From the NCBI RefSeq assembly GCF_016743815.1, contig NZ_CP061035.1:932501-996500 (forward strand): a stretch of 64,000 nt of DNA, given 5' to 3'. A program made the translations under genes and the position numbers. This DNA comes from Sphingomonas aliaeris (GTDB lineage: Bacteria > Pseudomonadota > Alphaproteobacteria > Sphingomonadales > Sphingomonadaceae). Under the pieces are notes generated by a model. That model was not told where the DNA came from. It worked only from the letters and a program-made list of their open reading frames with translations, and searched no databases. Position 1 is the stretch's first letter; each line of letters starts with the position of its first letter. Below are positions 5,616 through 39,321 of the stretch, piece after piece.

Positions 5616-6100
5616 TTACGCCGCCAGCACCAACCTGTTTCGGCCATTCACTTGGCATCGTACAAGGCCCGGTTAGCGACCCCAAGTAGCTGATCCGCAG
5701 TCGTCCCGGGTATAACAGCTGCGATCCCGACGCTCACCGTAACACGCATGGTTCGTCCGTCATCTGCCGTGCAGGGGGCCTCTGCGAAGCTCGCGCGAAC
5801 ACGTTCGCACACCAGTTCCGCCTGCTCCAGCGATGCACCGTCTAGGATAGCCACAAATTCTTCGCCGCCATACCGAGCCACCACATCGGAGGTTCGGAGC
5901 GTCGACCGGAGAAGGTCCGAAAACGTGCGGAGGACGACGTCGGCCGAGATGTGGCCGAAGCGATCGTTGATCGATTTGAAATGGTCGAGGTCGAACATTG
6001 CGATGCAATGGTTCATCTTTTCTACCTCGCTGACAAATTCTAGAGCCATGCCCCTGTCCGAATGACGATCGATCAACGGACGGTCATCAGCTGGTCGCAC
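5616..6100 (-). pseudogene. Degenerate GGDEF (diguanylate cyclase) gene, 3' frameshift
   Basis: The frame encodes a GGDEF domain with the active-site loop RYGGEEF and an inhibitory RxxD site (RTSD) exactly five residues before it, so the cyclase core looks sound. Both ends are abnormal. The N-terminus reads PLIDRHSDRGM where the family has PLTGLxNRRG, and no sensor domain precedes it. The C-terminus stops right after ALYDAK; one base later the shifted frame reads VNGRNRLVLAA-stop, the normal family ending, so a single G seems missing near 5650. As sequenced, the protein (5648-6100, GTG start) lacks the GRNR end. It may be a decayed fragment or an assembly error in a small cyclase. Confidence 0.65.
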
Positions 6101-17702: not shown

Positions 17703-18254
17703 AAAGCGGTCTGAAGCCCGTGGTCAGGTTGCGTCCAACACAGGTCTCGACTGCGCGCTTGAAGGTGTTTCATCTGTGATCTCGTGGACGCGCCATCGGG
17801 CGACGCGGAGGAAGGTGATCGCACTGAGCCTACGGCTCCGAGCGGGCGCTTGGTTCGGCCTAGGCGCCATCAGCGCCTAGGCTCATGCCCGTTCGGTGCT
17901 GCTGCCCGAACGGCTGCGCTTGCGAAGTTGGCCCAGCACCACAACCGAGTGCGTTCTCATCCTTCGAACAGTCTACGTCCCACCGGAGGCGATGTTCCAG
18001 AAGCCCACATGGACCATGTCCCCCATTCCCATCCAAGAGGGCGGACGACAACTCGTTTGACACTGGAGAGCGGGAGCGACATCATCAGGAGATGCAGCTT
18101 CGCGTGCGCCATCTCCGACGCCGTCTCCACGCGGGGCAACTCCTCGCGGGCATTTAGCCCCGGGCTCTCCTACGGCATGTCCCGAAGAGCTCGGGGCCAC
18201 CATTCGTCAACGCAGGTCAACCGCCCTCCGGTTGCGGACGCCTAGGAGATTAGC
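17703..18254. other. Intergenic region with tandem hairpins
   Basis: 552 bp between DUF421 (minus) and the Rnk-like gene (plus). The best open frame (17784-18245) is Arg/Pro/Ser-rich with no motif and looks non-coding. It contains the tandem perfect hairpins at 17858-17913 and a CTCC-rich stretch before the rnk-like gene. It probably holds both divergent promoters; none was identified with confidence. Confidence 0.5.
17858..17913. repeat. Tandem hairpin element, copy a
   Basis: Hairpin 1: GCCTAGGCG (17858-17866) with CGCCTAGGC (17874-17882), 7-nt loop. Hairpin 2: CCGTTCGG (17889-17896) with CCGAACGG (17906-17913), loop TGCTGCTGC. Both stems are perfect. Related two-hairpin arrangements occur at 20938-20998 and 30490-30544, each with a GT[AG]CT[AG]CT[GC]CCC core in the second element. 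Confidence 0.55.
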
Positions 18255-18674
18255 ATGAACGCGACGAGAGCGGCCGCAACGCGGCCGCAAATTCACATGA
18301 TTGAGGAAGAGGCCGATAACCTCTCCGGCTTGGCCCTCAGCAATGAGCACCGGTTTCCGCAGGTCAGCGAGCTTTTGATCCGTGAGACCTCAAGGGCAAA
18401 GCTGTACGCCGCTGCAAGTATCTCTCCGGATGTCGTGACCATGGGTGCGCTAGTCGAATTTGTGGACGAGGGGACGGGTGCGCAGCGAACGGTCCAACTC
18501 GTGTACCCACCCGAAGCCGACATTTCCGCCGGGCGGATCTCTATCCTGACGCCGATCGGCGCAGGCTTGATCGGCTTGCGCGAAGGCCAGTCGATACTTT
18601 GGCCGGACCGAGAAGGGCATGAGCGACGGCTCGTGATCGTCAAGGTTCAACAGCAGCCGGCACGCGCCGCCTGA
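18255..18674 (+). CDS. Rnk-like protein (GreA/GreB C-terminal domain)
   Basis: 139 residues. An N-terminal helical part (RPQIHMIEEEADNLSGLALSNEH) precedes a GreA/GreB-type C-terminal FKBP-like domain (GALVEFVDEG...RTVQLVYPPEADISAGRISILTPIGAGLIGLREGQSILW). In E. coli, Rnk of this form binds RNA polymerase in the secondary-channel region and regulates nucleoside diphosphate kinase; whether this protein does so is unknown. The GreA catalytic coiled coil is absent. Very similar in plan to the protein at 37252 and distantly to that at 22625. Preceded by AGGAG. Confidence 0.8.
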   Translation: MNATRAAATRPQIHMIEEEADNLSGLALSNEHRFPQVSELLIRETSRAKLYAAASISPDVVTMGALVEFVDEGTGAQRTVQLVYPPEADISAGRISILTPIGAGLIGLREGQSILWPDREGHERRLVIVKVQQQPARAA

Positions 18675-22016: not shown

Positions 22017-22410
22017 TGCTGCTCCAACCGCGGGGGACGACGGCTTGTTGTGTGAAATGGCCTGTGACGCCCGTTTACCTCACCGCGCCTCAGCGCATCC
22101 GGTCGCGCTTAGAGGTGAGCAGCGTCGCGGTCTATTCGAACAGGGGAGGGTGCGCGTTGCGTACGGCCGCCAGTTTGACTTTTCACGGCAAAGGGCCATG
22201 TTTCATGGCATGTGCGTCACGATCTCCGTTCGACACGCCGAAGTGCACCCAGGCAGCAGCACCGAGCGCCTGCATGCCCTGGGCGGTACTCCTGAATAGG
22301 CGTCCGACCTAGGGCTTCCTCCACCCGGCTAACGCGCCGGGTTCCCACATTCGCGAGAGCACAGCGGAGCTTGATTCCGCCGGGCATTTCGCACGTCGAG
22401 GAGGTGCGTG
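22017..22410. other. Intergenic region with hairpin
   Basis: About 390 bp between divergent genes. ACCCGGC (22323-22329) pairs with GCCGGGT (22336-22342). GGAGG at 22399-22403 is the ribosome-binding site of the next gene. Open frames here are antisense shadows without motifs. Confidence 0.45.
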
Positions 22411-22614
22411 ATGGACAGGTTCGTAGTCGAGGCGGACAGGAGAACGGTGGGAATCGCCGTGCGCGTCCCGGGTGGGTTCCAGTTCGTATGTTCTGATCCA
22501 GACTTTCGCTCGCTAGACAGCAAGGTGTTCCGGCGCGCCAGAGGATTGGCGAGCAGCGTCGCGGAGCTGGCGCGTGCACGACGCAGGGCGTCCCATGCCA
22601 AGACTTTGCATTAG
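22411..22614 (+). CDS. Small basic hypothetical protein (67 aa)
   Basis: MDRFVVEADRRTVGIAVRVPGGFQFVCSDPDFRSLDSKVFRRARGLASSVAELARARRRAS: a compact beta-rich N-terminal half followed by a basic helix. A strong GGAGG lies 7 nt before the ATG. It leads the cluster with the Rnk-like and HemD-fold genes (10-nt gap to the next start), so it is probably co-expressed with them. No homology recognised. Confidence 0.6.
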   Translation: MDRFVVEADRRTVGIAVRVPGGFQFVCSDPDFRSLDSKVFRRARGLASSVAELARARRRASHAKTLH

Positions 22615-22624
22615 GAGCGCCGGC

Positions 22625-23113
22625 ATGGACACGGTTTGTCCCTCCTCGATCGGCGCGCTTGTCGGGATCTGGAGGGCTCTGCACAAGGACCTGTCGGTCG
22701 AGATGGACCCGACAGAGGGGCGTTATCTCCAGCACGTGGTCTACGCGATGGATGATGAGCTGGTGGCGGCGCTTCTTGCCGCCAAGCTGGCGATGTCCAA
22801 GCCCCCAAGCAACACACACTCGATGGGCGATCTGGTGAGACGGGGCAGCGAAGTGCTCTACTCCGTACAAGGGCGTCGACATCGTGCACGGCTCGTGCAC
22901 GGCTCCGCTCGGGAAGATGGGCTTCTCGGCGTCGATACAAGGTTCGGCGCGGCCCTGCTGGGCCTGCGTTCGGGCCAGTCGCTTCTTTGGCCACATGAGC
23001 ATGGAAGGCTCGTCGAAGTGCATGCACTTGAGGTCGCAGACGGCCGGGCGCGCGTAGACGGGGCCTTCGAGAAGATCCCGCAACACGGGAGCGTTCCATG
23101 CGCATCTGGGTGA
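22625..23113 (+). CDS. Divergent Rnk/GreA-C-like protein
   Basis: 162 residues from ATG 22625 (GGAG 8 nt upstream). The N-terminal ~90 residues are helical and unlike the other two Rnk-like proteins (IWRALHKDLSVEMDPTEGRYLQHVVYAMDDELVAALL). The C-terminal half keeps the GreA-C/Rnk pattern: DLVRRGSEVLYSVQGRRHRARLV...LLGVDTRFGAALLGLRSGQSLLWPHEHG. Role inferred as RNA-polymerase binding; not proven. Its end overlaps the HemD-fold gene by 16 nt, giving tight coupling. The same order (Rnk-like, then HemD-fold) recurs at 37252-38814. Confidence 0.65.
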   Translation: MDTVCPSSIGALVGIWRALHKDLSVEMDPTEGRYLQHVVYAMDDELVAALLAAKLAMSKPPSNTHSMGDLVRRGSEVLYSVQGRRHRARLVHGSAREDGLLGVDTRFGAALLGLRSGQSLLWPHEHGRLVEVHALEVADGRARVDGAFEKIPQHGSVPCASG

Positions 23114-23918
23114 CCAGGACGACACCGGGAAACCAATCGACAGTTGAGAGCTTACAGGCGCTTGGCCATGAGGTGGTGTGCGTGCCGGTACTGAACGTGC
23201 GTCGCATCGATGCCGATCCGCTCCGCTCGCTGCCTGACGCGATCGTCTTCACCAGCGGCAATGGCGTGCGACACCACCCGATGTGGCCCGAGGCGCTCGA
23301 CCTTCCCGTATTTACAGTAGGCAATCGCACTGCCGATGCGGTCATCCGTGCCGGTTATCGGAACGTCCGATCTGCCAACGGCGATCTCAGGGATCTACAG
23401 ACGCTGATCCTCAACGAGCTACCACCACCTGGTCGGATCGTGCATTTTGGTGCTCGGGAGCCTGCTGGCGACCTGAAGGGCCACCTTCGGAGGTTCGGTT
23501 ATCTGGTGGATAGGAAGATCGTGTATATCGCGGACGCCGTGGCTCTGCGTTGGCTCCTGCAGGTCAGGACCGATCTTCCGAACATCGATGGGATCATGGT
23601 GCACTGGCCCGCGCAGGTGAAAGGGTCGCGAAGGTGCTCTCTAAGACCGACTGGTCGGGGAAGATCTGGTGCATATCGAACGCATGTGCGCAGAAGCTGG
23701 CCAGAGTGCGTAACGTTACGATCGACGTCGCATCGAGGCCGACAGAGCTAGCGCTGGTGGACTTAGTCCGTCAGGGTGGAAGCGCGCGCATGCAGGCAGT
23801 GCCTCCTTGCGCCGTACGTTCCATCCGACTGGGCTCTGGGCTTCCCGCCAATGACAACGACGCTCCTTCGCATGAAGATGATGGCGAGCCCGAGGGTGAA
23901 CCGCCGTCCGCAGCGTAA
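23098..23918 (+). pseudogene. HemD-fold (uroporphyrinogen-III synthase-like) protein, frameshifted
   Basis: Begins MRIWVTRTTPGNQSTVESLQALGHEVVCVPVL and contains SLPDAIVFTSGNGVRHH and PPPGRIVHFGAREPAGDLKGHLRRFGYLVDRKIVY, matching the two-lobed HEM4 fold. The frame breaks near 23605: as sequenced it ends at 23751, but the other frame continues AGERVAKVLSKTDWSGKIWCISNACAQKLARVRNVTID...RPTELALVDLV and an acidic tail LPANDNDAPSHEDD, ending at 23918. Adding one base in CACTGG restores VHSARAGERV, aligning with the intact paralog at 37972. Not near hemC, so a role in haem synthesis is doubtful. Confidence 0.7.
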
Positions 23919-23988: not shown

Positions 23989-24993
23989 ATGTTCGACAAC
24001 GCACCTATGTGGGCAGGGAAAAGAGCGGATCTCGCTATCGACCTCGGCACTGCCAACACTCTGGTGGTCGAACGGGCGGCAGGCATTGTGTTCGAGCAGC
24101 CGTCCATCTGCTGCTTCGACGATGACCTGGGAGCGGCAGCCGAGCTTTTCGCCGCAGGGATAGCGGCCAAGCAGATGGCAGGTCGAGAGGTGAAGCGGCT
24201 CCGGATGGTCCGACCGTTGCGCCAAGGCGTTTTAGTGGACGTCTCTGCCGCTGCGGAGCTCCTGAAGTTCGCGATCAGACCTGTGACCGCCCGCCGGCGT
24301 CTCCGACGGGCGCGTGCGATCATCGGCGTACCGAGCGATGCAACGCAGGCGGAGCGCAGGGCACTCACCAAGGCTGCATATGAAGCGGGATTGGCCGAGC
24401 CGCTGCTTCTCCCCGAGCCACTGCTTTCAGCCCTCGGGTCCGGCCTGGACATTGGCGCAGCTCGCGGCCGCATGATCGTGGATTGCGGCGCGGGGGTCAC
24501 TGATGTCGTCGTACTGTCGCTTGGTGGTGTATGCGTGGCCCAGTCGGTCCGTGGAGGCGGCGACGCCGTCGAGATCGCCTTGATGCACCATTTGCACCTG
24601 CAGCGGCAGTTCCGGGTTGGTCCTTCAGCCGCTGAAACCTTGAAGATCGCGCTGTCGGCAGCGCTGGCTTCTCGAACGGCAACACACGTCGAGGTAAAGG
24701 GCCTAGACACACGATCCGGCCTTCCTCGGACGCTCTCCGTGGCGGTCGAGGAGTTGCGGCCCGTCATCCAGAAATACGCGGCGGAAGTGACTACAACGGT
24801 GCGTGCTGCACTCTCACGGTTAGACCCTGATCTCGCAATGGATATTCTGGAAGACGGGATCACCTTGGCTGGTGGAGCGGCTTTGACCGCATTGGTCGCC
24901 CAGCAGATCGAAGAGTCCACGGGAGTCGAGACACATTGCCAAAGCGAACCTCAGAAGGCAGTCGCTAAAGGCTTGGAGATGATGCTCAACTGA
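23989..24993 (+). CDS. Divergent MreB-like actin homolog
   Basis: 334 residues from MFDNAPMW; longer starts to 23938 exist. MreB/actin motifs: phosphate-1 ADLAIDLGTANTLVVER, RPLRQGVLVDVSAAAELLKFAI, RARAIIGVPSDATQAERRAL, LLPEPLLSALGSG (MreB: IEEPMAAAIGAG), phosphate-2 MIVDCGAGVTDVVVLSLGG (MreB: VVDIGGGTTEVAVISLGG), adenosine site ITLAGGAALTALVA. The phosphate-2 loop and catalytic-Glu segment are changed, so ATP turnover or polymerisation may differ. It follows the HemD-fold gene by 70 nt. No mreC, mreD, pbp2 or rodA is adjacent, so this is an accessory paralog. Function unknown. Confidence 0.78.
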   Translation: MFDNAPMWAGKRADLAIDLGTANTLVVERAAGIVFEQPSICCFDDDLGAAAELFAAGIAAKQMAGREVKRLRMVRPLRQGVLVDVSAAAELLKFAIRPVTARRRLRRARAIIGVPSDATQAERRALTKAAYEAGLAEPLLLPEPLLSALGSGLDIGAARGRMIVDCGAGVTDVVVLSLGGVCVAQSVRGGGDAVEIALMHHLHLQRQFRVGPSAAETLKIALSAALASRTATHVEVKGLDTRSGLPRTLSVAVEELRPVIQKYAAEVTTTVRAALSRLDPDLAMDILEDGITLAGGAALTALVAQQIEESTGVETHCQSEPQKAVAKGLEMMLN

Positions 24994-26410: not shown

Positions 26411-26629
26411 TCATCGCCTCCGCAAGAGCTCGCCTGATTTCACCACCTCAAACGTATTGTCGTCGATGTACCGAACCGCCTCGCCAGAAGTGAGCGCGAG
26501 GCGGCGGGAGCCGCGCAGGAAGCGAGCGCCGGTCTTGCCTCGGACAACTGCGGAGTGATGATACTCGAGAACGGTGAGCGGGGTCTCGTCATCGCCAATG
26601 CACCTGAACCGAGCGATTTCATGCTCCAT
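26411..26629 (-). CDS. Small 'RCxGDD' hypothetical protein, copy 1
   Basis: 72 residues: MEHEIARFRCIGDDETPLTVLEYHH...GSRRLALTSGEAVRYIDDNTFEVVKSGELLRRR. It aligns end to end with the protein at 37673-37969 (ELARHRCTGDDGTALFVIEHRH ... NGEPVRYIHARALEVIATGELL), so this is a small conserved beta-rich family. Its start overlaps the end of the uracil-DNA glycosylase gene by 11 nt, so they are coupled. Function unknown. Convergent with metB. Confidence 0.65.
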   Translation of the reverse strand: MEHEIARFRCIGDDETPLTVLEYHHSAVVRGKTGARFLRGSRRLALTSGEAVRYIDDNTFEVVKSGELLRRR

Positions 26630-30842: not shown

Positions 30843-32054
30843 TCAGGCCGCCAGCAGCTCGTCGGCAGGACCAAAGAACTCGTAATGGATCCGGTTGGCG
30901 GGAAGGCCTGCCATCGAAAGGGCGGAAACCAGCGTCCGCAACATCGGGCGCGGGCCACACAGGAAATAATCCGCATCGTCGATCGGCGTCTCGGCCCGAA
31001 GCCACGCCTCGTCGATCAGCCCATTGCGGTCGAAGTCGCGGCCCGACGCGTCCTCGGCGCGCGGGTGCTGATAGAAAAACGTAGTTCGAACATTTGGTCG
31101 TCCATCAGCAAGGTGGCGCACGTGATCGCCCATCGCGTGGGTTGAGCCATCGAGCGTGCCATGCGCATAATGGACAGGAAGTCCCGGATGCTTCTCGATG
31201 ATCGCTTCCAGCATCGCCACCATCGGAGTCAGACCAACACCACCGGACAGGAGCACCACCGGCCGCTCAGGGTTATCGGCGAGGAAGAACTCGCCGGCAG
31301 GGGGCGCGACCTTCAGCACAGTGCCGGGCTTCGCCTCGTTGTGCAGCCAGCTCGAGGCGACGCCCTCCGGCTCGCGCTTGACGGAGATGCGGTAGGTCTC
31401 GCCGTTCGGCGCAGCGGAGATGCTGTAGTTGCGCTTGAGCGGCGCATGACCGGGGATCTCCAGCCAGAAGGTAAGATACTGGCCCGGCTTGTGGCGCACT
31501 ACGGGTCGGCCATCGGTCGGTCGAAGCACGAAGGAGGTGATGATCGCGCTCTCTGGCCGGGCCTCCTCGACGACGAATGTCCGCCAACCACTCCATCCAC
31601 CCTCGGCCGCAGCCAGATCATGATAGATATGATCCTCGCGCGCGATCAGGATGTTGGCTAGGAACCAGTAAGCCTCACCCCAAGCTGCCAGTACCTCTTC
31701 TGTAGCAGCGTCGCCGAGCACCTCCTTGATCGCAGCCAGCAACGCTTCGGCGACATAGGGGTAGTGCTCGGGAAGGATTTGCAGCCCCACATGCTTCTGC
31801 GCGATCCGCTCGACAGCGGGCGCAAGTGCGCCGAGATTCTCGATGTTATTGGCGTAGGCGAGAATGGCTGCGGTCAATGCCCGGGGCTGCGAACCGGAGT
31901 CGCCATGGTGCGACTGGTTGAACAGATCGCGGATCATCGGGTTCTGGAACATGCGATCATACATGACACGCACGATCTCCAGTCCATGGGCTTCAAGGGC
32001 GGGCACAGTGGCTTTGACGAGCGCAACTGTGCGGTCGCTGAGGGGCTGCGACAT
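30843..32054 (-). CDS. hmp: Flavohaemoglobin (nitric oxide dioxygenase)
   Basis: 403 residues, the usual Hmp length. Globin domain (residues 1-140) with proximal-His region IAQKHVGLQI and YANNIENLGAL; FAD-binding domain with RNYSIS and GQYLTFW; NAD(P)-binding domain with LLSGGVGLTPMVAMLEA and YFLCGPRPML. It converts NO plus O2 to nitrate in the cytoplasm using NAD(P)H. Last gene of an operon with a DUF1971 protein and a truncated globin; an NsrR site lies in the promoter region and nsrR diverges, so NO-inducible expression is expected. Confidence 0.93.
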   Translation of the reverse strand: MSQPLSDRTVALVKATVPALEAHGLEIVRVMYDRMFQNPMIRDLFNQSHHGDSGSQPRALTAAILAYANNIENLGALAPAVERIAQKHVGLQILPEHYPYVAEALLAAIKEVLGDAATEEVLAAWGEAYWFLANILIAREDHIYHDLAAAEGGWSGWRTFVVEEARPESAIITSFVLRPTDGRPVVRHKPGQYLTFWLEIPGHAPLKRNYSISAAPNGETYRISVKREPEGVASSWLHNEAKPGTVLKVAPPAGEFFLADNPERPVVLLSGGVGLTPMVAMLEAIIEKHPGLPVHYAHGTLDGSTHAMGDHVRHLADGRPNVRTTFFYQHPRAEDASGRDFDRNGLIDEAWLRAETPIDDADYFLCGPRPMLRTLVSALSMAGLPANRIHYEFFGPADELLAA

Positions 32055-32101
32055 AAAGGACTCCTTTGGATGAATGTGGCCGGTGGCCGTTTGGGAAAGG
32101 A

Positions 32102-32374
32102 TCAGTCGCCAGGCGGCTCGTCGTAGAAATCGACCTGCATCTTCACAGCGCCGAGCGGCTCCACGAAATGCGGCTGTTCGGGTAGGATCAGACCCGGCAA
32201 ATCGGCCGTGACAACCGTCTCAGAGGGTGGATCGAGATAGGTGAGCTTCAATCGCCCTTCGATCACGCGGACCACGCCCCATACACCGGCCTTAGTACGG
32301 TGCTCGTTCCGAAGGGCGGCCGGAAGCGTCGCCTCGTCGAACACCGGGGTCGACCGATAGGGAACCGCGCTCAT
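32102..32374 (-). CDS. DUF1971 (TehB-associated) small protein
   Basis: 90 residues from MSAVPYRSTPVFDEATLPAALRNEHRTKAGVWGVVRVIEGRLKLTYLDPPSETVV, the DUF1971 cupin-like pattern. These proteins accompany nitrite/NO and tellurite-resistance genes. Its start lies next to the truncated-globin stop and hmp follows by 47 nt, so it belongs to the NO-response operon. The role is unproven; a small-molecule binding function is likely from the fold. Confidence 0.8.
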   Translation of the reverse strand: MSAVPYRSTPVFDEATLPAALRNEHRTKAGVWGVVRVIEGRLKLTYLDPPSETVVTADLPGLILPEQPHFVEPLGAVKMQVDFYDEPPGD

Positions 32375-32375
32375 C

Positions 32376-32804
32376 TCAAGCGGCCTTTCGGCCCGAAGGC
32401 GGCAGCTTGAAGAACATGGCCAGCTGCAGGCTCTCGGCAATACGGGCAGCTTTTGCCTGAAGGGCAGTCGCAGTCTCCGGCGGCATTACCTCAGCCGTAG
32501 TGCACGCCCACAGAGCCAGCCAACGCTCGAAGAACGCAGGGTCGATGCGCTCACGATGCTTGATATGTGCGGCGACCGGATTGCCTTTGTACCGGCCGCT
32601 GGTCAGCATCACTGATGACCAGAAAGCGGTGAGCTTCTCGAGATGTTCGGACCAGTCGCCAACGGCATCGTTGAAGATCGGTCCGAGATCGGCATCCGCG
32701 CGGACCCGCGCGTAGAACAGGGCGACGAGCCGCCTCAGCCCTTGCTCATCGATCTGCGCCAACTCGTCCACGAGCCATGCTCCAATCATGTACTTCAAGT
32801 GCAT
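32376..32804 (-). CDS. Group III truncated haemoglobin
   Basis: 142 residues: LRRLVALFYARVRADADLGPIFNDAVGDWSEHLEKLTAFWSSVMLTSGRYKGNPVAAHIKH, then FFERWLALWACTTAEVMPPE, matching group III (trHbP) globins including the proximal-His segment AAHIKHRERI. Probably binds NO or oxygen in the cytoplasm. First gene of the operon leading to hmp; its ATG is 17 nt from the NsrR-like site, so repression by NsrR would be direct. Confidence 0.85.
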   Translation of the reverse strand: MHLKYMIGAWLVDELAQIDEQGLRRLVALFYARVRADADLGPIFNDAVGDWSEHLEKLTAFWSSVMLTSGRYKGNPVAAHIKHRERIDPAFFERWLALWACTTAEVMPPETATALQAKAARIAESLQLAMFFKLPPSGRKAA

Positions 32805-32821
32805 CTATTCTCCCGATTTGA

Positions 32822-32844
32822 AAGATGCAACAGAAATACATATA
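32822..32844. promoter_or_regulatory. NsrR-type operator
   Basis: AAGATGCA, 5 nt, then AATACATATA, a close match to the NsrR consensus (AAGATGCAT half-site and its mirror) in the 78-bp gap between the globin operon and nsrR. It could control both directions. Basis: pattern match plus context. Confidence 0.7.
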
Positions 32845-32882
32845 AGCGGAGCAGCCGATGACGGCTTGGATCGGGAGGCCAT

Positions 32883-33347
32883 GTGCGGCTGACGCGCTAC
32901 ACCGACTACGCCATGCGGGTGCTGCTCTACGTCGGCGCACGCCCCGATCGCCTATGCTCGATCGCGGAAATCTCCCGCGCCTATGGTATCTCGAAGGACC
33001 ACCTGATGAAGGTGGTCCACGATCTCGGGAAGGCCGGCTATATCACGACGGCGCGAGGACGGTTCGGGGGAATCAGACTTGGCCGACCCGCTGAGGAAAT
33101 CAGCGTCGGTGCCGTTGTCCGACATACGGAGGACGGCTTCGATCTGGCGGACTGCGGACGCTGCATCATTGCGCCTGCGTGCGGTTTGACCGGCGTGCTT
33201 CGAGAGGCGCTCGCCGCCTTCATGGCCGTGCTCGATCGCTACACGCTCGATGATCTCCTCGCAAAACGTGCCGATATCCTGGAGCTCTTCTCGGTCGCCA
33301 GGCAGGACCCGCTCCCGGTCGAAAGCGCAACATCACTGCATCCCTAG
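32883..33347 (+). CDS. nsrR: Rrf2-family NO-sensing repressor NsrR
   Basis: 154 residues. N-terminal winged helix (MRLTRYTDYAMRVLLYVGA ... SIAEISRAYGISKDHLMKVVHDLGKAGYI) and a cluster-binding loop with Cys91, Cys94 and Cys100 (DCGRCIIAPACGL). NsrR holds an iron-sulfur cluster that reacts with NO, releasing repression. Divergent from hmp/DUF1971/globin with an NsrR-like operator between, so assignment as NsrR rather than IscR or RirA is strong. The first cysteine spacing (CxxC) is shorter than in E. coli NsrR. Confidence 0.88.
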   Translation: MRLTRYTDYAMRVLLYVGARPDRLCSIAEISRAYGISKDHLMKVVHDLGKAGYITTARGRFGGIRLGRPAEEISVGAVVRHTEDGFDLADCGRCIIAPACGLTGVLREALAAFMAVLDRYTLDDLLAKRADILELFSVARQDPLPVESATSLHP

Positions 33348-33356
33348 CCGTCTGCC

Positions 33357-33381
33357 GGAGCAATTTACGTCCGGACACGTT
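33357..33381 (+). promoter_or_regulatory. Candidate EcfG (general stress sigma) promoter for DUF3606 gene
   Basis: GGAGC, 16 nt, CGTT, ending 26 nt before the DUF3606 ATG. The alphaproteobacterial EcfG consensus is GGAAC-N16/17-CGTT, so there is one mismatch in the -35. DUF3606 genes often belong to the general stress regulon, which supports the call. Confidence 0.4.
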
Positions 33382-33407
33382 CGATCTCCGACAGAGTGAG
33401 GATCAGA

Positions 33408-33608
33408 ATGGCAGACGACAAAGCGAAACAGGGGCAGCAGGATCGGATCCGTGTGGCTGGCAACGAACCTTATGAGGTGGAGTATTTCGCTTCCAAGCAT
33501 GGCCTTAGCCAGGGGCAGGCTCGCGACCTCATCAAGCGCGTCGGCAACGATCGGGCAAAACTCGACGAAGCCGCAGAGAAGTTGAAGGGCGAGCGAAACA
33601 GCGGGTAA
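33408..33608 (+). CDS. DUF3606 small stress protein, copy 1
   Basis: 66 residues from MADDKAKQGQQDRIRVAGNEPYEVEYFASKHGLSQGQARDLIKRVGNDRAKLDEAAEKL. This is the DUF3606 pattern: a hydrophilic N-terminus, 'YEVEYFA.KHGLS..qA..LI...GN.R..L..AA'. ATG 33408 is preferred to the frame start at 33396. A second copy is at 53892-54077. Function unknown; expression under general stress is typical. The ZIP gene follows after 4 nt. Confidence 0.82.
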   Translation: MADDKAKQGQQDRIRVAGNEPYEVEYFASKHGLSQGQARDLIKRVGNDRAKLDEAAEKLKGERNSG

Positions 33609-33612
33609 GGTT

Positions 33613-34374
33613 GTGACCGGAGTATGGGTCGCAGGCTTTTGGGGGTTCGTTGGCGGATCGGCGCTGATCCTCGGTGCCCTGGTCGCCTATTTCGTAACGC
33701 TGCCGCAGCGGCTTATCGCATCAATCATGGCCATCGGGTCAGGAGTGCTGATCTCGGCAGTCGCGTTCGATCTGATGGACGAGGCGTTCCGACAGGGGGG
33801 CTTTGACTCCACCGAGCTCGGCTTTCTCGGCGGGGCAGTGGTCTATACCGCGGCTAACATCATCGTATCGCAGCGAGGTGCGCGTCACCGCAAGCGCTCA
33901 GGATCCAACCCGGACGAGAGTCAGCCTAGCGCGCAATCGAATTCCGGCGCGGCGATAGCTATCGGTGCGTTGCTCGATGGTATCCCGGAATCGGTGGTGA
34001 TCGGCGCTAGCCTGCTGAGCGGAGGTGGAGTGAGCGCCGTTACGGTCGCTGCAGTCTTCCTTTCCAATGTTCCTGAGGGACTCTCCAGCGCGGCAGGGAT
34101 GAAGGCCGCAGGCAGGGGACCCGGCTACACTTTCGGGGTTTGGGGCGGGATCGCGATAGCTTCCGCTATCTCGGCAATGATCGGGAATGTTGCCTTAGCC
34201 GGCAGCGGTCCGGAGCTCATCGCCGCAGTGACAGCGGTAGCGGCAGGTGCCATTCTGGCCATGCTGGTCGACACCATGATCCCCGAAGCGACCGAGGCGA
34301 CCCATGACTATTCGGGTCTGATCGCCGTCATAGGCTTTCTTGCAGCATTCATTCTGTCGAAGCTTGGCGGATGA
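33613..34374 (+). CDS. ZIP-family metal transporter
   Basis: 253 residues, about eight membrane segments. ZIP metal-site motifs: LLDGIPESVVIGASL in TM4 and FLSNVPEGLSSAAGMKAAG in TM5 (the usual HNIPEG is NVPEG here); a loop between TM3 and TM4 is polar (RGARHRKRSGSNPDESQPS). Likely imports zinc or another divalent cation. The GTG start 4 nt after the DUF3606 stop implies co-transcription. Confidence 0.82.
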   Translation: MTGVWVAGFWGFVGGSALILGALVAYFVTLPQRLIASIMAIGSGVLISAVAFDLMDEAFRQGGFDSTELGFLGGAVVYTAANIIVSQRGARHRKRSGSNPDESQPSAQSNSGAAIAIGALLDGIPESVVIGASLLSGGGVSAVTVAAVFLSNVPEGLSSAAGMKAAGRGPGYTFGVWGGIAIASAISAMIGNVALAGSGPELIAAVTAVAAGAILAMLVDTMIPEATEATHDYSGLIAVIGFLAAFILSKLGG

Positions 34375-34419
34375 AAACCCCGGCGTCGGCTCGCCCCAGA
34401 TCTAATGAGGAGCGCATAC

Positions 34420-35022
34420 ATGACACCTGATGAAGCTTTCGCTCTTCTACGTGACGGAAACGCCGCATTCCTGCGCGGTGATGTGGCTGCTCCCGATATC
34501 GGCCCAAGCCGGCGGTTGAGCCTCGCTCAGGGCCAGTCTCCGTTCTGCGCCTATGTCACGTGCTCCGATAGCCGGGTACCTCCAGAGCTGTTGTTTGGGC
34601 GCGGTCTGGGTGAGCTGTTCATCGTTCGCAATGCCGGCAACACCATCGATACCGTCGCGAGAGGCTCGATTGAATTTGCTGTGGCGGTCCTCAATGTGCC
34701 TCTGATCGTCGTAATGGGTCACCAGGCATGCGGCGCTGTAAAGGCGGCCATGTCGGTGGTTGAGAACAATGCCCGTTTTCCGGGAGCCATCGGCACCATG
34801 CTGGAACCCATCATTCCGGCTGTCCTGGAGGCGAGGAGCCTAAGCGGTGATCCAACCGAGAACGCCGTAAGGTCAAACGTCAGACGTGTTGTGCGCGGAT
34901 TGCGTGAAGCGAGCGCACCGATCCTCCTATCCCCTTTGGCAGAAGGTAAGCTCAGAATCGTAGGTGCCTATTATAGCCTGGCAACGGGCGAGGTGGACTT
35001 CTTCGACAATCTTACGTCGTAA
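34420..35022 (+). CDS. Beta-class carbonic anhydrase
   Basis: 200 residues from ATG 34420, which has GAGGAG 8 nt upstream; the frame extends 5 codons further. Zinc ligands: Cys in CSDSRVPPE with its Asp-Arg dyad, and His and Cys in VVMGHQACGAVKAA. FIVRNAGNTID completes the signature. Reversible CO2 hydration in the cytoplasm. About 45 nt after the ZIP gene, so zinc uptake and a zinc enzyme may share a transcript; the linkage is suggestive only. Confidence 0.88.
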   Translation: MTPDEAFALLRDGNAAFLRGDVAAPDIGPSRRLSLAQGQSPFCAYVTCSDSRVPPELLFGRGLGELFIVRNAGNTIDTVARGSIEFAVAVLNVPLIVVMGHQACGAVKAAMSVVENNARFPGAIGTMLEPIIPAVLEARSLSGDPTENAVRSNVRRVVRGLREASAPILLSPLAEGKLRIVGAYYSLATGEVDFFDNLTS

Positions 35023-35797: not shown

Positions 35798-36064
35798 GTG
35801 ATGCGGCGAGGCCGATTTACCGAGGATCAGATCATTGGCGTGCTGCGCGAGCATGAGGCCGGCGTGAAGACCGCCGACTTGTGCCGGAAGCATGGAATCA
35901 GTGACGCGACGTTCTACAACTGGAAGGCGAAGTACGGCGGGATGACCGTGTCGGAGGCGGCGCGGTTGCGGGCGCTCGAGGACGAGAACCGCCGGCTGAA
36001 GAAGCTGCTGGCGGAGTCGATGCTCGACGTGTCGGCGCTGAAGGATCTGCTGGGAAAAAATTGA
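35798..36064 (+). CDS. IS3-family transposase OrfA
   Basis: 88 residues: helix-turn-helix ([42 protein letters not shown]) and a C-terminal leucine-zipper helix ([29 protein letters not shown]). It binds the IS ends and forms the N-terminal part of the OrfAB transposase after -1 frameshifting at the A6 run (36055-36060). Within the element at 35742-36938. Confidence 0.9.
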
Positions 36065-36921
36065 CCCGGTCTGGAGATCGCTACGCTGCGGTGGAGAAGC
36101 TGATGGCCGACCACAGCTTCTCCGAGCGTCGCGCCTGCAGGCTGATCGGGGTCAACCGGTCGGCGTGGCAATATGAGCCGCTTCGCGGGAAGGACGATGC
36201 TGTCCGCGCGCGGATGCGCGAGATCGCGAACGAACGTCGTCGCTTCGGCTATCGACGGCTGGCGATCCTGCTCAAGCGGGAGGGCAAGGGCATGAACCTG
36301 AAGAAGGTGTATCGGCTGTATCGCGAGGAGCGACTGACCGTACGCAAGCGTGGCGGTCGCAAGCGCGCGCTGGGCACGCGGGCGCCGATGGCGATCCCGC
36401 AAGAATCCAACCAGCGCTGGTCGCTCGACTTCGTATCGGACTCGTTGGCCTGCGGCCGGCGGTTCCGCATGCTCAACGTCATCGACGACTACAGCCGGGA
36501 ATGCTTGGGATGCATCGTCGACACCTCGCTGTCGGGTCGGCGGGTCGTTCGCGAGCTGAGCGCCATCGCCGAGCGTCGCGGGCTGCCGTGCATGGTGGTC
36601 AGCGACAACGGCACCGAGCTGACTAGTCATGCCGTCCTCGCCTGGTGTCAAGACACCGGGGTCGAGTGGCACTACATCGCCCCGGGGAAGCCGCAGCAGA
36701 ATGGCTTTGTGGAATCGTTCAATGGTCGCTTGCGCGACGAGTGTCTGAACGAACACCTGTTCCCCTCGCTGGCTGCGGCGAGACGGATCATCGAGGCATG
36801 GCGGACGGACTACAACACCGTGCGTCCGCACAGCAGTCTTGGCGGGATGGCACCCGCCGAGTTTACGAACCGCCCCCGCCAGGGGCATATGGAAACCGAA
36901 GCTAAGTTATCAGCGGCCTGA
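36061..36921 (+). CDS. IS3-family transposase OrfB (DDE integrase)
   Basis: 286 residues in the -1 frame relative to OrfA. Retroviral-type integrase core: first Asp in [11 protein letters not shown], second in [11 protein letters not shown], catalytic Glu in [22 protein letters not shown], then [18 protein letters not shown]. Probably made as an OrfAB fusion; an independent start at 36061 (TTG) is unlikely to be used much. The catalytic set is complete. Confidence 0.9.
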
Positions 36922-36942: not shown

Positions 36943-37251
36943 GAGCCCGGCTCCGTCCTGAGTACCGGCGCCCAAACTGGATGTATCGAGCCGGGTTTGT
37001 CCTACAGGACACATTGATCAGCCAGCTCCAGATAGGACTCAGGGGTTGACGAATCTGTTGTAGGCATCATCTTCCAAAGATGTACGTTTTCGCGACATAC
37101 AGGCGCTTCCGCCACCACGCAGGGCAACTCGCCGGGCGCCGGTAGCCCGGGCTTGGACGGCATTGCCGCCTGAGTTCGGGCCTATTCGATCTGATCCTTA
37201 GGAAGGTGCCCGGGTGGGGCCTCCGATCTCGGATAGCGAAAAGCTGCTACA
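36943..37251. other. Gap between IS element and rnk-like operon
   Basis: About 310 bp with no supported gene. GC-rich short inverted repeats occur near 37130-37160. It should contain the promoter of the operon starting at 37252; no consensus box was recognised. Confidence 0.4.
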
Positions 37252-37668
37252 ATGGAACAACACACCGTTTCGCCGGATGACCGTCCGGCTATCCATCTCG
37301 CTGCCCCCGAGTGCGACGCACTTTCGGAACTGGCTCTGAGTGCCGAGCACAGGCACCCGTATTCCTCGGCGGTGCTCCTTGCCGAGCTCGATCGCGCCGA
37401 ACTGTGCGAACCGGGCGAACTGCCGGAGCAGACGGTGGCGATGAACTCACGCGTTGACTTCATTGATGAAGGAGGCGGCTCACGCCGCACCGTGCAACTC
37501 GTTTATCCCCGCGACGCTGACATAGCTGCAGGGCGGATTTCAAACCTGACGCCGATTGGCGTGGGCCTGATCGGCATGATGGCCGGGTCTTCAATCCGCC
37601 GGGCGGATCGCGACGGACATGATCGAATGCTGCGCATCGTGAGCGTGACGTCGTCTGGAGAGGGTTAA
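37252..37668 (+). CDS. Rnk-like protein (GreA/GreB C-terminal domain), second copy
   Basis: 138 residues: helical N-terminus (DRPAIHLAAPECDALSELALSAEHRHPYSSAVLLAELDRAEL) and a Rnk-type C-terminal domain (SRVDFIDEGGGSRRTVQLVYPRDADIAAGRISNLTPIGVGLIGMMAGSSIRRADRDGHDRML). Close in plan to the protein at 18255, but where that one has GQSILWPD this has GSSIRRAD, changing a normally aromatic position. Role inferred as RNA-polymerase binding. First of three tightly packed genes with the RCxGDD and HemD-fold genes. Confidence 0.8.
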   Translation: MEQHTVSPDDRPAIHLAAPECDALSELALSAEHRHPYSSAVLLAELDRAELCEPGELPEQTVAMNSRVDFIDEGGGSRRTVQLVYPRDADIAAGRISNLTPIGVGLIGMMAGSSIRRADRDGHDRMLRIVSVTSSGEG

Positions 37669-37672
37669 GGCT

Positions 37673-37969
37673 ATGATCGGGGAACTGGCTCGTCACCGCT
37701 GCACCGGAGATGACGGCACGGCTTTGTTCGTGATCGAGCACCGTCATGTCTTCACTTCGCCAGGAGGAGCAGGGCCACGCCAGCATCGCGGCGCGGCGTG
37801 GGCGACGCTGCTGAACGGCGAGCCTGTCCGCTACATCCATGCCCGGGCCTTGGAGGTCATTGCGACGGGCGAGCTGCTTGTCCGCGATCTGCGACGTTGC
37901 AACTGCGCGCCTGCCGCCATGATCGTTACCCGTGATGGTGGCCGTGAGCGCAAGGCCAGGCAAGCATAG
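37673..37969 (+). CDS. Small 'RCxGDD' hypothetical protein, copy 2
   Basis: 98 residues: MIGELARHRCTGDDGTALFVIEHRHVFTSPG then LNGEPVRYIHARALEVIATGELLVRDLRRCNC and a basic tail. It aligns with the protein at 26411-26629 over its first ~70 residues and has an extra C-terminal segment with two Cys. 4 nt after the rnk-like stop and 2 nt before the HemD-fold start, so co-translated. Function unknown. Confidence 0.7.
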   Translation: MIGELARHRCTGDDGTALFVIEHRHVFTSPGGAGPRQHRGAAWATLLNGEPVRYIHARALEVIATGELLVRDLRRCNCAPAAMIVTRDGGRERKARQA

Positions 37970-37971
37970 CC

Positions 37972-38814
37972 ATGTCCGTCTGGATTACCCGATCGGCTCC
38001 CGACAACCTGCGCACGGCACGCGAACTACACGCGTTAGGGCAGCGCCCGCTGATGGTGCCAGTGATCACGACGGTGGCCCGCTACCAGCCACCGATTACG
38101 TCGCTGCCCGATGCGATCGTTTTCACAAGTGTCCACGCGGTGCGCCATTTCGCGCGCCGCGATCAACTCGCGTCCGTGCCGGTGTTCGCCGCCTCCGGCT
38201 CGGTCGCGAATGCAGCCTCGCTGGCGGGCTACGGGACCGTCACTTCCACGGGCAATGATGACGAGATGCTGTCGGATCTCATCGGCCATGTGCTTCCACC
38301 CGCCGCGCGCATCCTGCTCCTGTGCGGCGACAGCACCTCCCCGATAGTCGCCGACCGTCTAGCGGCCCGGGACTGCCGCGTCGCGCGTCAGCCAGTCTAC
38401 AAATCCGTGCCGGTCCAGGATCATGCGCTCGTACCTGTGACAGGCGCGATGGATCGGATCAGTGCGATCGTCTTGCATTCCCGCAGCGGTGCCGAGCGCA
38501 TCGTCCCGATGCTGCGCGGTGCCCGCTGGCGCGGCGCGTTATGGTGCATATCTGAGCAGGCGGCCCGCGCTTGCAGTGAGCTGCAACACGTCAGCGTGCA
38601 TACCGCCACCCATCCGACCGAAGGATCGCTCCTCGATATGATCGCCCGGATCTCGCCAGCGGGGCAGAAGCGACCGTCACAACCCCGCAGACGCAATGCG
38701 GCGATCCTGACGTCCGCACTTCAATCGCGGCGGTCATCGCGAGGCCTCGCGGCGCGAAACGACAATGTTCCCGATGTTTCGCCGGATGATCATCCGGACC
38801 CTACTGCCGCCTGA
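37972..38814 (+). CDS. HemD-fold (uroporphyrinogen-III synthase-like) protein
   Basis: 280 residues. N-lobe: MSVWITRSAPDNLRTARELHALGQRPLMVPVI, LPDAIVFTSVHAVRHF, VPVFAASGSVANAASLAGYGTVTSTGNDDEML. C-lobe: ARILLLCGDSTSPIVADRLAARDCRVARQPVYKSVP, ISAIVLHSRSGAERIVPML, LWCISEQAARACSELQHVSVHTATHPTEGSLLDMI. This is the whole HEM4 fold. It is followed by a basic linker and an acidic tail containing RNDNVPDVSPDD, similar to the tail of the copy at 23098. No hemC, hemB or cobA is adjacent. It may be a catalytic paralog or a repurposed binding protein; unresolved. Confidence 0.78.
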   Translation: MSVWITRSAPDNLRTARELHALGQRPLMVPVITTVARYQPPITSLPDAIVFTSVHAVRHFARRDQLASVPVFAASGSVANAASLAGYGTVTSTGNDDEMLSDLIGHVLPPAARILLLCGDSTSPIVADRLAARDCRVARQPVYKSVPVQDHALVPVTGAMDRISAIVLHSRSGAERIVPMLRGARWRGALWCISEQAARACSELQHVSVHTATHPTEGSLLDMIARISPAGQKRPSQPRRRNAAILTSALQSRRSSRGLAARNDNVPDVSPDDHPDPTAA

Positions 38815-38889: not shown

Positions 38890-39321
38890 ATGCTCCGTGC
38901 CCCGATGACCGCCGCCATCACGGCAGGCTTGATGCTTTCCGCCTGCGCCACCACCGGCTCCGGATCATCGTCTGCTGACACGGCCTCCGTCACTGCGCTT
39001 CAGGCGGGCGAGTGGCGGGTCGAGAATATCGCAGGAGCGGGCGTCATCGACAATTCGCTGGCGACGCTGCTGTTCGGCCCGGAGGGCAGGCTGTCGGGCA
39101 ATGCAAGCTGCAACCGCCTGATCGCCAACTACACAGTCGAGGGGAGCAGGCTGACAATCAGCCCGGCCGGCACGACGATGATGGCGTGCCCGCCCGCGTT
39201 GATGGACCAGGAGCGCAAGCTGGTGGATCTCATCGGCATGGTGACGCGCTACAGCATCGACCGGACCGGCAAGCTCACTCTCACATCGGCATCGGGCAAG
39301 AGCATCGTCGCGCGCCGCTGA
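38890..39321 (+). CDS. META-domain (HslJ-like) lipoprotein
   Basis: 143 residues: lipoprotein signal MTAAITAGLMLSAC, then a META domain (GEWRVENIAGAGVIDNSLATLLFGPEGRLSGNASCNRLIANYTVEGSRLTISPAGTTMMACPPALMDQERKLVDLI) with the two conserved Cys of the family. Outer-membrane or periplasmic, stress associated; precise role unknown. Preceded by a CCGGCACCG...TGCCGG-type hairpin. Confidence 0.85.
   Translation: MLRAPMTAAITAGLMLSACATTGSGSSSADTASVTALQAGEWRVENIAGAGVIDNSLATLLFGPEGRLSGNASCNRLIANYTVEGSRLTISPAGTTMMACPPALMDQERKLVDLIGMVTRYSIDRTGKLTLTSASGKSIVARR

Follow-up and report, generated by a model that had tools for sequence, protein, structure and literature searches.

Rnk of Escherichia coli binds RNA polymerase and there competes with and displaces the Gre factors and DksA (PMC4598747). 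Leaders in front of greA and rnk were described by Naville and Gautheret in 2010 as premature terminators or attenuators, with Pseudomonas, Enterobacteria, Yersinia and bacilli appearing in the figure legend (PMC2965389). In the alphaproteobacterium Sinorhizobium meliloti the 5′ end of the trpL/peTrpL leader RNA coincides with the ATG of the leader ORF (PMC7298713). A link between the HemD fold and gene regulation is known from NnaR of actinobacteria, a HemD-domain protein reported to have no HemD activity, on which expression of a truncated haemoglobin depends (PMC6277429). In the accessible portions of the open-licence literature, nothing closer to an alphaproteobacterial rnk leader peptide or to a pairing of Rnk with HemD was found than these four reports.

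Our analysis concerns a window of 64,000 nt from Sphingomonas aliaeris (NZ_CP061035.1, positions 932,501 to 996,500), to which all coordinates without a contig or locus name refer. Like E. coli Rnk, the products of two genes in the window, RnkA and RnkC, pass the NCBIfam cut-off for rnk. Unlike E. coli Rnk, as far as the available text of that study describes it, three Rnk-like genes occur in this one window, two of them together with a gene for a HemD-fold protein (termed HemDL here); the rnkA operon additionally contains a gene for a small RCxGDD protein and the rnkB cluster an MreB-like gene (PMC4598747). The rnkA operon (operon A) and the gene behind it are composed as follows.

37252..37668, plus strand: rnkA, rnk-like, with a GreA/GreB-C domain (ORF list and family profile matches)
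37673..37969, plus strand: gene for the small RCxGDD protein, of no known family and predicted to be mostly beta
37972..38814, plus strand: HemDL_A, HemD-fold paralogue with a low-confidence C-terminal tail carrying a conserved ND
38890..39321, plus strand: META-domain gene, HslJ-like (Pfam)

The original prediction had read 37252-38814 as a tight three-gene operon for an Rnk/GreA-C-type protein, an RCxGDD protein of no known family and a HemD-fold protein with no tetrapyrrole genes nearby, and all of this was borne out. The three ORFs lie on the plus strand with gaps of 4 nt (rnkA to RCxGDD) and 2 nt (RCxGDD to HemDL_A). RnkA matches PF01272 with an E value of 2.7e-14 and reaches 113 bits on the NCBIfam model NF004396 (rnk), with a cut-off of 109 bits, and HemDL_A matches PF02602 (HEM4) with an E value of 1.5e-25 and has the HemD fold in structure prediction. 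Among the 39 window translations that were scanned, no gene of tetrapyrrole synthesis was detected besides HEM4. The RCxGDD protein gave no family match up to E 1 in the profile search against Pfam and NCBIfam. Its identification by fold was given up, as only one of five models was confident (81.9 versus 56.9 or less) and no PDB match was obtained at E 0.001. A paralogue with 46% identity is encoded at 26414..26623 on the minus strand, and P0103, a response-regulator domain protein of 165 aa, contains a stretch resembling RCxGDD, with 88% identity across 53% of the query.

Downstream of operon A and on its strand follow the META-domain gene, which is also found 3′ of the module in three relatives (G357, G005 and pP6W1), a hydroxyisourate hydrolase gene and an HbpS-like gene. 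On a plasmid (L078:7961-10276) genes for hydroxyisourate hydrolase and a haem-binding protein are likewise located beside rnk-RCxGDD. Upstream, at 35798-36921, ORFs that read by eye as an IS3-like transposase end about 125 nt 5′ of the −35 box of the operon, and a gene group at 30843-35019 encodes a flavohaemoglobin, a globin-like protein, an Rrf2-type regulator, a ZIP-like protein and a carbonic anhydrase. The globin-like gene has no Pfam match and resembles globin genes of relatives; at L162, L175, L186, L076 and L077, rnk too has globin, Rrf2 or DUF1971 genes nearby.

With regard to HemDL, the genome contains three HEM4 places, two in the window and one at C1:3778479, where the HEM4 gene shares 4 nt with an ORF judged by eye to be hemC. 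Since the true hemD is thus likely to be this hemC-linked gene, the HemD-fold gene of the window is an accessory paralogue, and the possibility that HemDL is the only HEM4 copy of the genome, on which the original prediction would have fallen, is ruled out. AlphaFold2 predicts a HemD fold for HemDL with good confidence (mean pLDDT 84.5) except in the tail, where confidence is low. The best PDB matches of the model are uroporphyrinogen-III synthases, among others those of Pseudomonas, Thermus and Shewanella, so that HemDL carries both the HEM4 domain, by profile match, and the HemD fold, by predicted structure. It stands alone as a protein, with no further domain recognised by Pfam. Across 60 aligned HemDL proteins, with the other members 37-88% identical to the HemDL of the window, F51, S53, Y143, H169, S170, W191 and C192 are fully conserved, and W4, T6, R7 and the C-terminal N263-D264 almost fully. 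The tails of the two window copies (38740-38814 and 23850-23918) share NDN, and many HemDL proteins end in ...A-A, which we take to be reminiscent of C-terminal degrons.

A tree with 57 rows was calculated from 30 HemDL and 27 HemD sequences. The HemDL set comprised three HemDL_B, one plasmid copy and 26 proteins out of the 60 from the database. For HemD, 31 HEM4 loci were considered, the own one and the 30 that scored best in the order sample, and four with 40 bits or less or with no frame were left out. The two sets fall on opposite sides of a 100/96 branch and HemDL fails to group with the HemD of the order, the own HemD being a long branch (2.24) whose placement the program called unsure. 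Family scores do not separate the two, as HemDL (98.1 bits) and the hemC-linked HemD (89.1 bits) score alike on the NCBIfam HemD model and both remain under its cut-off of 223; for the same reason we dropped this cut-off as proof that HemDL is not HemD, a result that makes a working HemDL enzyme slightly more likely.

The window contains a further rnk gene and a second cluster with a Rnk-like gene and HemDL (cluster B).

18255..18674, plus strand: rnkC, above the NCBIfam rnk cut-off (127.7 bits versus 109)
22210..22299, plus strand: class II uORF, predicted leaderless, MCVTISVRHAEVHPGSSTERLHALGGTPE and stop, with a −35 box TTGACT at 22175-22180
22411..22614, plus strand: gene for a 67-residue protein of no Pfam family, gene 1 of cluster B
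22625..23113, plus strand: rnkB, divergent Rnk-like protein
23098..23918, plus strand: HemDL_B, frameshifted near 23600
23989..24993, plus strand: MreB-like gene, which adjoins the 3′ side of HemDL_B in five of six B clusters (the exception being G005)

The succession of a Rnk-like and a HemD-fold gene at 22625-23918, which had been put forward as a repeat of the order in operon A, is real, but the frame of HemDL_B is not intact: it breaks near 23600 in the window and the C-terminal part resumes in another frame. This might be either a real mutation or a sequencing error, and in three relatives (L110, L119 and L121) the gene is a single open frame. RnkB is a distant family member with an E value of 0.14 to PF01272 and 33.1 bits (E 4e-8) on the NCBIfam rnk model, under the 109-bit cut-off. 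A class II uORF with the peptide ...RHVEVHPGSSTERLPALG is kept 5′ of the B cluster in G144, G358, G379, G306 and the own genome (G000). It was not seen 5′ of the B-type cluster of G005, which has a class I leader and a small membrane protein 840 nt upstream. The folds after the class II stop are weak (−11.8 and −12.2 in L119 and L120), so the hairpin part of this leader is only putative. In the window, rnkA and rnkC are the Rnk-like genes with a class I leader and rnkB the one with a class II uORF.

HemDL turned out to be rare. It was detected in 13 of 295 genomes of the genus, with 15 copies at E 4e-40 or better and a clear gap to the best hit of the next genome (E 1.6e-18), and of 147 genomes of the order sample five had two or more HEM4 matches, the second being weak in one of these. 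A Rnk-like gene lies 5′ of nine of the 15 copies in the same gene run, directly or with RCxGDD in between; these are both copies of the own genome, one of G005, and those of G357, G400, G144, G358, G379 and G306, with RCxGDD between Rnk and HemDL in copy A of the own genome and in G357. The remaining six (the other G005 copy, G233, G425, G240, G318 and G241) had no Rnk-like gene in tblastn searches with the three Rnk queries of the window. On plasmid pSHV1 of Sphingobium herbicidovorans rnk and HemDL occur on one strand, 448 nt apart, and genes for a truncated haemoglobin, an MreB-like protein and a universal stress protein are nearby. rnk and RCxGDD are also carried by plasmids from Novosphingobium sp. 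P6W and from Sphingomonas paeninsulae, and no HemDL is annotated on these within the 20 kb shown. At three loci the HemDL match is limited to the first 24 codons, after which the next leader follows (L013:5719-5916, L014:656-727 and L015:10001-10072).

The proposed conservation of the pairing thus holds in that it recurs in seven of 294 other genomes of the genus and on pSHV1, which also removes the objection that the adjacency might be found in no relative, but the pairing is not a fixed unit. By comparison, 12 of the 15 HemDL copies have one of the two leaderless-uORF leaders before the operon, with no leader found directly 5′ of either G005 copy or of that of G318, and we took the leader, instead of the adjacency of Rnk and HemDL, to define the unit (9 of 15 with Rnk versus 12 of 15 with a leader). 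HemDL was found at none of 40 leader-bearing loci of other genomes, a count that leaves out the own genome and G005 (both of which have HemDL) and four weak sites. The module is a real and recurrent accessory paralogue of the alphaproteobacterial rnk operon, and its 5′ leader, rather than the Rnk-HemD pairing that the original prediction took as the unit while missing the leader, is its constant, best conserved and most novel part.

The stretch conserved 5′ of these operons consists of a short ORF and a hairpin that follows it.

37046..37051, plus strand: −35 box TTGACG of the operon A promoter (position statistics over 60 leaders)
37068..37073, plus strand: −10-like CATCTT, 6 nt before the uORF ATG
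37080..37145, plus strand: class I leader uORF, MYVFATYRRFRHHAGQLAGRR and stop, predicted leaderless (codon-position conservation)
37145..37181, plus strand: GC hairpin, its first paired base being the G of the uORF TAG stop (MFE −26.3, z −3.96)
18057..18062, plus strand: −35 box TTGACA of the rnkC leader
18092..18157, plus strand: second class I leader uORF, MQLRVRHLRRRLHAGQLLAGI and stop, before rnkC
18157..18197, plus strand: hairpin of the rnkC leader

We computed anatomy, conservation, coding signature, promoter spacing and hairpin covariation for this leader, as we did the paralogy of HemDL. Of 60 leaders, 53 have a TTGACA-like box (at least five of six positions) 35 or 36 nt upstream of the uORF ATG, and a CATCNT-like −10 box ends 6 nt before the ATG in most of the 60 rows, the region 5′ of the ATG having been outside the search model. 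With the −35 box about 35 nt before the ATG, transcription is expected to begin at the AUG itself or immediately beside it, which would make the uORF leaderless. Its length is exactly 21 codons in 49 of 60 leaders and its stop is TAG in 54 of 60; some loci have longer uORFs and other stops. Among 43 distinct 21-codon uORFs R9 and G15 are invariant, Q16 is found in 42 and L17 in 41, and the peptide has an HxGQLLAG-like C-terminus behind a variable N-terminal half. Codons 9-21 have a pN/pS of 0.36 and third positions twice as variable as the others, a codon pattern typical of a translated ORF, which disfavours the leader as an RNA structure alone. The hairpins are more stable than shuffled sequences (mean z −3.5 over 57 sites, 52 of them below −1), and in 35 of 57 pairing starts with the final base of the stop codon; a paired G of the stop may explain the preference for TAG. 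The arms pair in 537 of 594 cells, with a permuted maximum of 479, and the covariation was reached by none of 500 shuffles and was best at slide 0; both tests lean to structure, as the arms were anchored on their own folds and the alignment was fitted to the model.

No clear U-run follows most sphingomonad hairpins by eye, and these are therefore poor classical terminators, although U-runs were seen, again by eye, in some relatives outside the order (L249, L259 and L263). In 12 leaders with ATTCGA, which are of the rnkA type, the small-membrane type and in one case RCxGDD, a second inverted repeat ATTCGA...TCGAAT precedes the ribosome-binding site, and in the other 37 leaders aligned the spacer from hairpin to gene varies. 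A search with 4227 Rfam models at E up to 5 in 14000-42000 of the window left the leaders without a match on their own strand. Hits to chrB-b (E 1.1, on the other strand, at chance level) and to Atu_C3 inside HemDL (E 0.18) were far under their gathering scores and were discarded.

A covariance model of uORF and hairpin found two strong sites in the own genome, 37080 (rnkA) and 18092 (rnkC), with the next-best site at E 0.026. Counts for order and class are lower bounds due to the strict Infernal filters: the leader occurs in at least 43 of 396 genomes and 12 of 84 genera of the order. rnk is present in 58 of the 396 genomes, with leader and rnk together in 39, the leader alone in four and rnk alone in 19; when 15 of these 19 were searched with a broader model, 11 yielded diverged leaders (E 0.01 or better), each then followed by rnk. 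The gene after 62 leaders, a set that includes the 19 from which model R1 was built as well as near-identical pairs and omits four weak sites (G550, G114, G528 and G100), is rnk in 48 cases, a small membrane protein gene in six, HemDL directly in three and RCxGDD-HemDL in one, with four unassigned. The small membrane protein (FFSN...GVPVLVYC) follows class I leaders at L013:3613-3726 and 5851-5965 and at L156, L158, L110 and L077, and two tested members had no Pfam match. At L162:7953-8067 a class I leader precedes a 463-codon gene that is not rnk and is by eye glutamate dehydrogenase-like. In the class, the model matched at least eight of 289 genomes, six of them outside the order; there a Rnk-like gene was next in four, L228 runs off the contig and L230 (G709) has no Rnk-like gene after the leader, rnk being 2 kb off on the other strand. 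rnk itself is above the cut-off in 27 of the 289 genomes; 25 of these lie outside the order, and their 25 loci have a model site at E 0.01 or better in eight cases. A general link of rnk leaders with MreB or globin genes was rejected as weak, with MreB-like genes at six of 40 loci.

A model-free test asked whether the roughly 500 nt upstream contain an ORF of 15-32 codons whose −35 box is located at −34 to −36, together with a hairpin at least as stable as −15 kcal/mol; in a loose version the box could be at −33 to −38. The loci were the best-scoring of each search, with strands set by hand and the frame open at the match start in all; greA-type loci were the top 30 PF01272 matches, taken on the match alone, and two hemD loci (L025 and L045) had short upstream stretches. 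The strict arrangement was detected at 25 of 30 rnk loci of the order, where the ORF starts 170-227 nt before the match, and at nine of 25 rnk loci outside it, the other 16 failing, versus none of 30 greA-type and none of 30 hemD loci. Loose counts were 27, 11, two and zero, respectively. In the window, six of 1142 such ORF starts passed, among them the leader starts of all three Rnk operons.

As a whole, we give an about even chance to the explanation that the module is under a translation-dependent attenuator leader with Rnk as its output and HemDL as partner or sensor. From the promoter spacing we infer that the mRNA begins with the AUG of the uORF and is translated without a leader. A ribosome that reaches the TAG, where the hairpin begins, would cover the 5′ arm of this hairpin, and as stop codon and hairpin base are one, it must open the hairpin on ending the uORF; as is expected of an attenuator, the conserved hairpin overlaps the stretch that a ribosome would cover. 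Slow termination, or a stall through the HxGQLLAG-like C-terminus, would then block the hairpin and let the polymerase continue into rnk, and with the uORF untranslated the hairpin would form and the polymerase would be stopped or paused. The conservation of the C-terminus beside the stop points to slow termination of the kind known from arrest peptides. In some sphingomonads the same leader would also drive RCxGDD and HemDL, or the small membrane protein. The arrangement resembles the rnk leader of Naville and Gautheret in having a hairpin in the rnk 5′ leader and differs from it in the predicted leaderless uORF that ends in the hairpin, no leader peptide being described in the available text of that study (PMC2965389). 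With S. meliloti trpL it shares an alphaproteobacterial leader RNA that starts, here by prediction, with the ATG of the leader ORF; in contrast to trpL, which reads tryptophan supply, the rnk uORF has no run of a single amino acid and is conserved at the C-terminus and stop (PMC7298713).

The weak U-runs leave room for a version based on translation or stability, in which the hairpin would place ribosomes for a new initiation at rnk or would stabilise a processed mRNA. We regard it as somewhat unlikely: the few U-runs and the ATTCGA...TCGAAT repeat before the ribosome-binding site in 12 leaders are what it would expect, but the variable hairpin-to-gene spacer in the other 37, the U-runs by eye in L249, L259 and L263, and the premature termination described for greA and rnk leaders elsewhere (in the accessible part of PMC2965389) speak against it. 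Within the attenuator explanation, HemDL may act as a ligand sensor or as a partner protein with the HemD fold, much as appears to be the case for the HemD domain of NnaR. It is like NnaR in being a HemD-fold protein beside another HemD, with globin-type genes near the module, and unlike NnaR, as far as the available text of that report goes, in having no other recognised domain and in being free-standing in an rnk operon (PMC6277429). That HemDL would instead be a second working uroporphyrinogen-III synthase for times of high haem demand, e.g. by the nearby globins and flavohaemoglobin, appears doubtful to us. The HEM4 domain is intact in copy A with its HemD fold, HemDL scores 98 bits against 89 for the hemC-linked HemD, and genes for flavohaemoglobin, a globin-like protein and an Rrf2-type regulator are located 4-6 kb upstream, all of which would suit an enzyme, but the genome already has a hemC-linked hemD, the scanned translations hold no other tetrapyrrole gene, and the tree splits HemDL from the 27 HemD, albeit with the long own HemD of unsure placement.

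The association of Rnk with HemDL might also be a by-product of genes gathering on a mobile stress island, with no joint function. The rare and patchy occurrence of HemDL (13 of 295 genomes), the module parts on plasmids, the 24-codon remnants and the IS3-like transposase read by eye just 5′ of the operon would fit such an origin; the same gene order in the diverged A and B lineages, the gaps of 2-4 nt in A and the overlapping ends in the B cluster of the window speak against it, and we rate it as somewhat unlikely, too. The attenuator explanation can be taken further, to a scenario that we hold to be quite unlikely, in which across much of the Alphaproteobacteria a leaderless peptide arresting at its own stop inside an attenuator hairpin controls Rnk, a protein of the RNA-polymerase secondary channel, and in which sphingomonads wired a HemD-fold sensor, RCxGDD and an MreB paralogue into this coupling of transcription with translation. 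If this were true, the switch would test both 70S initiation and termination before the polymerase is released.

To our knowledge Rnk has no known job despite its binding to RNA polymerase. A leader that is common before rnk and, in the strict test, absent before greA-type genes and hemD offers a direct handle on the role of Rnk, and the signal that this leader may sense would be a strong clue to what Rnk answers to. HemDL would be a case of an enzyme fold set in a transcription-factor operon, and the uORF predicted to run from the first base of the transcript to a stop within the hairpin would make this leader a compact switch between leaderless translation and transcription.
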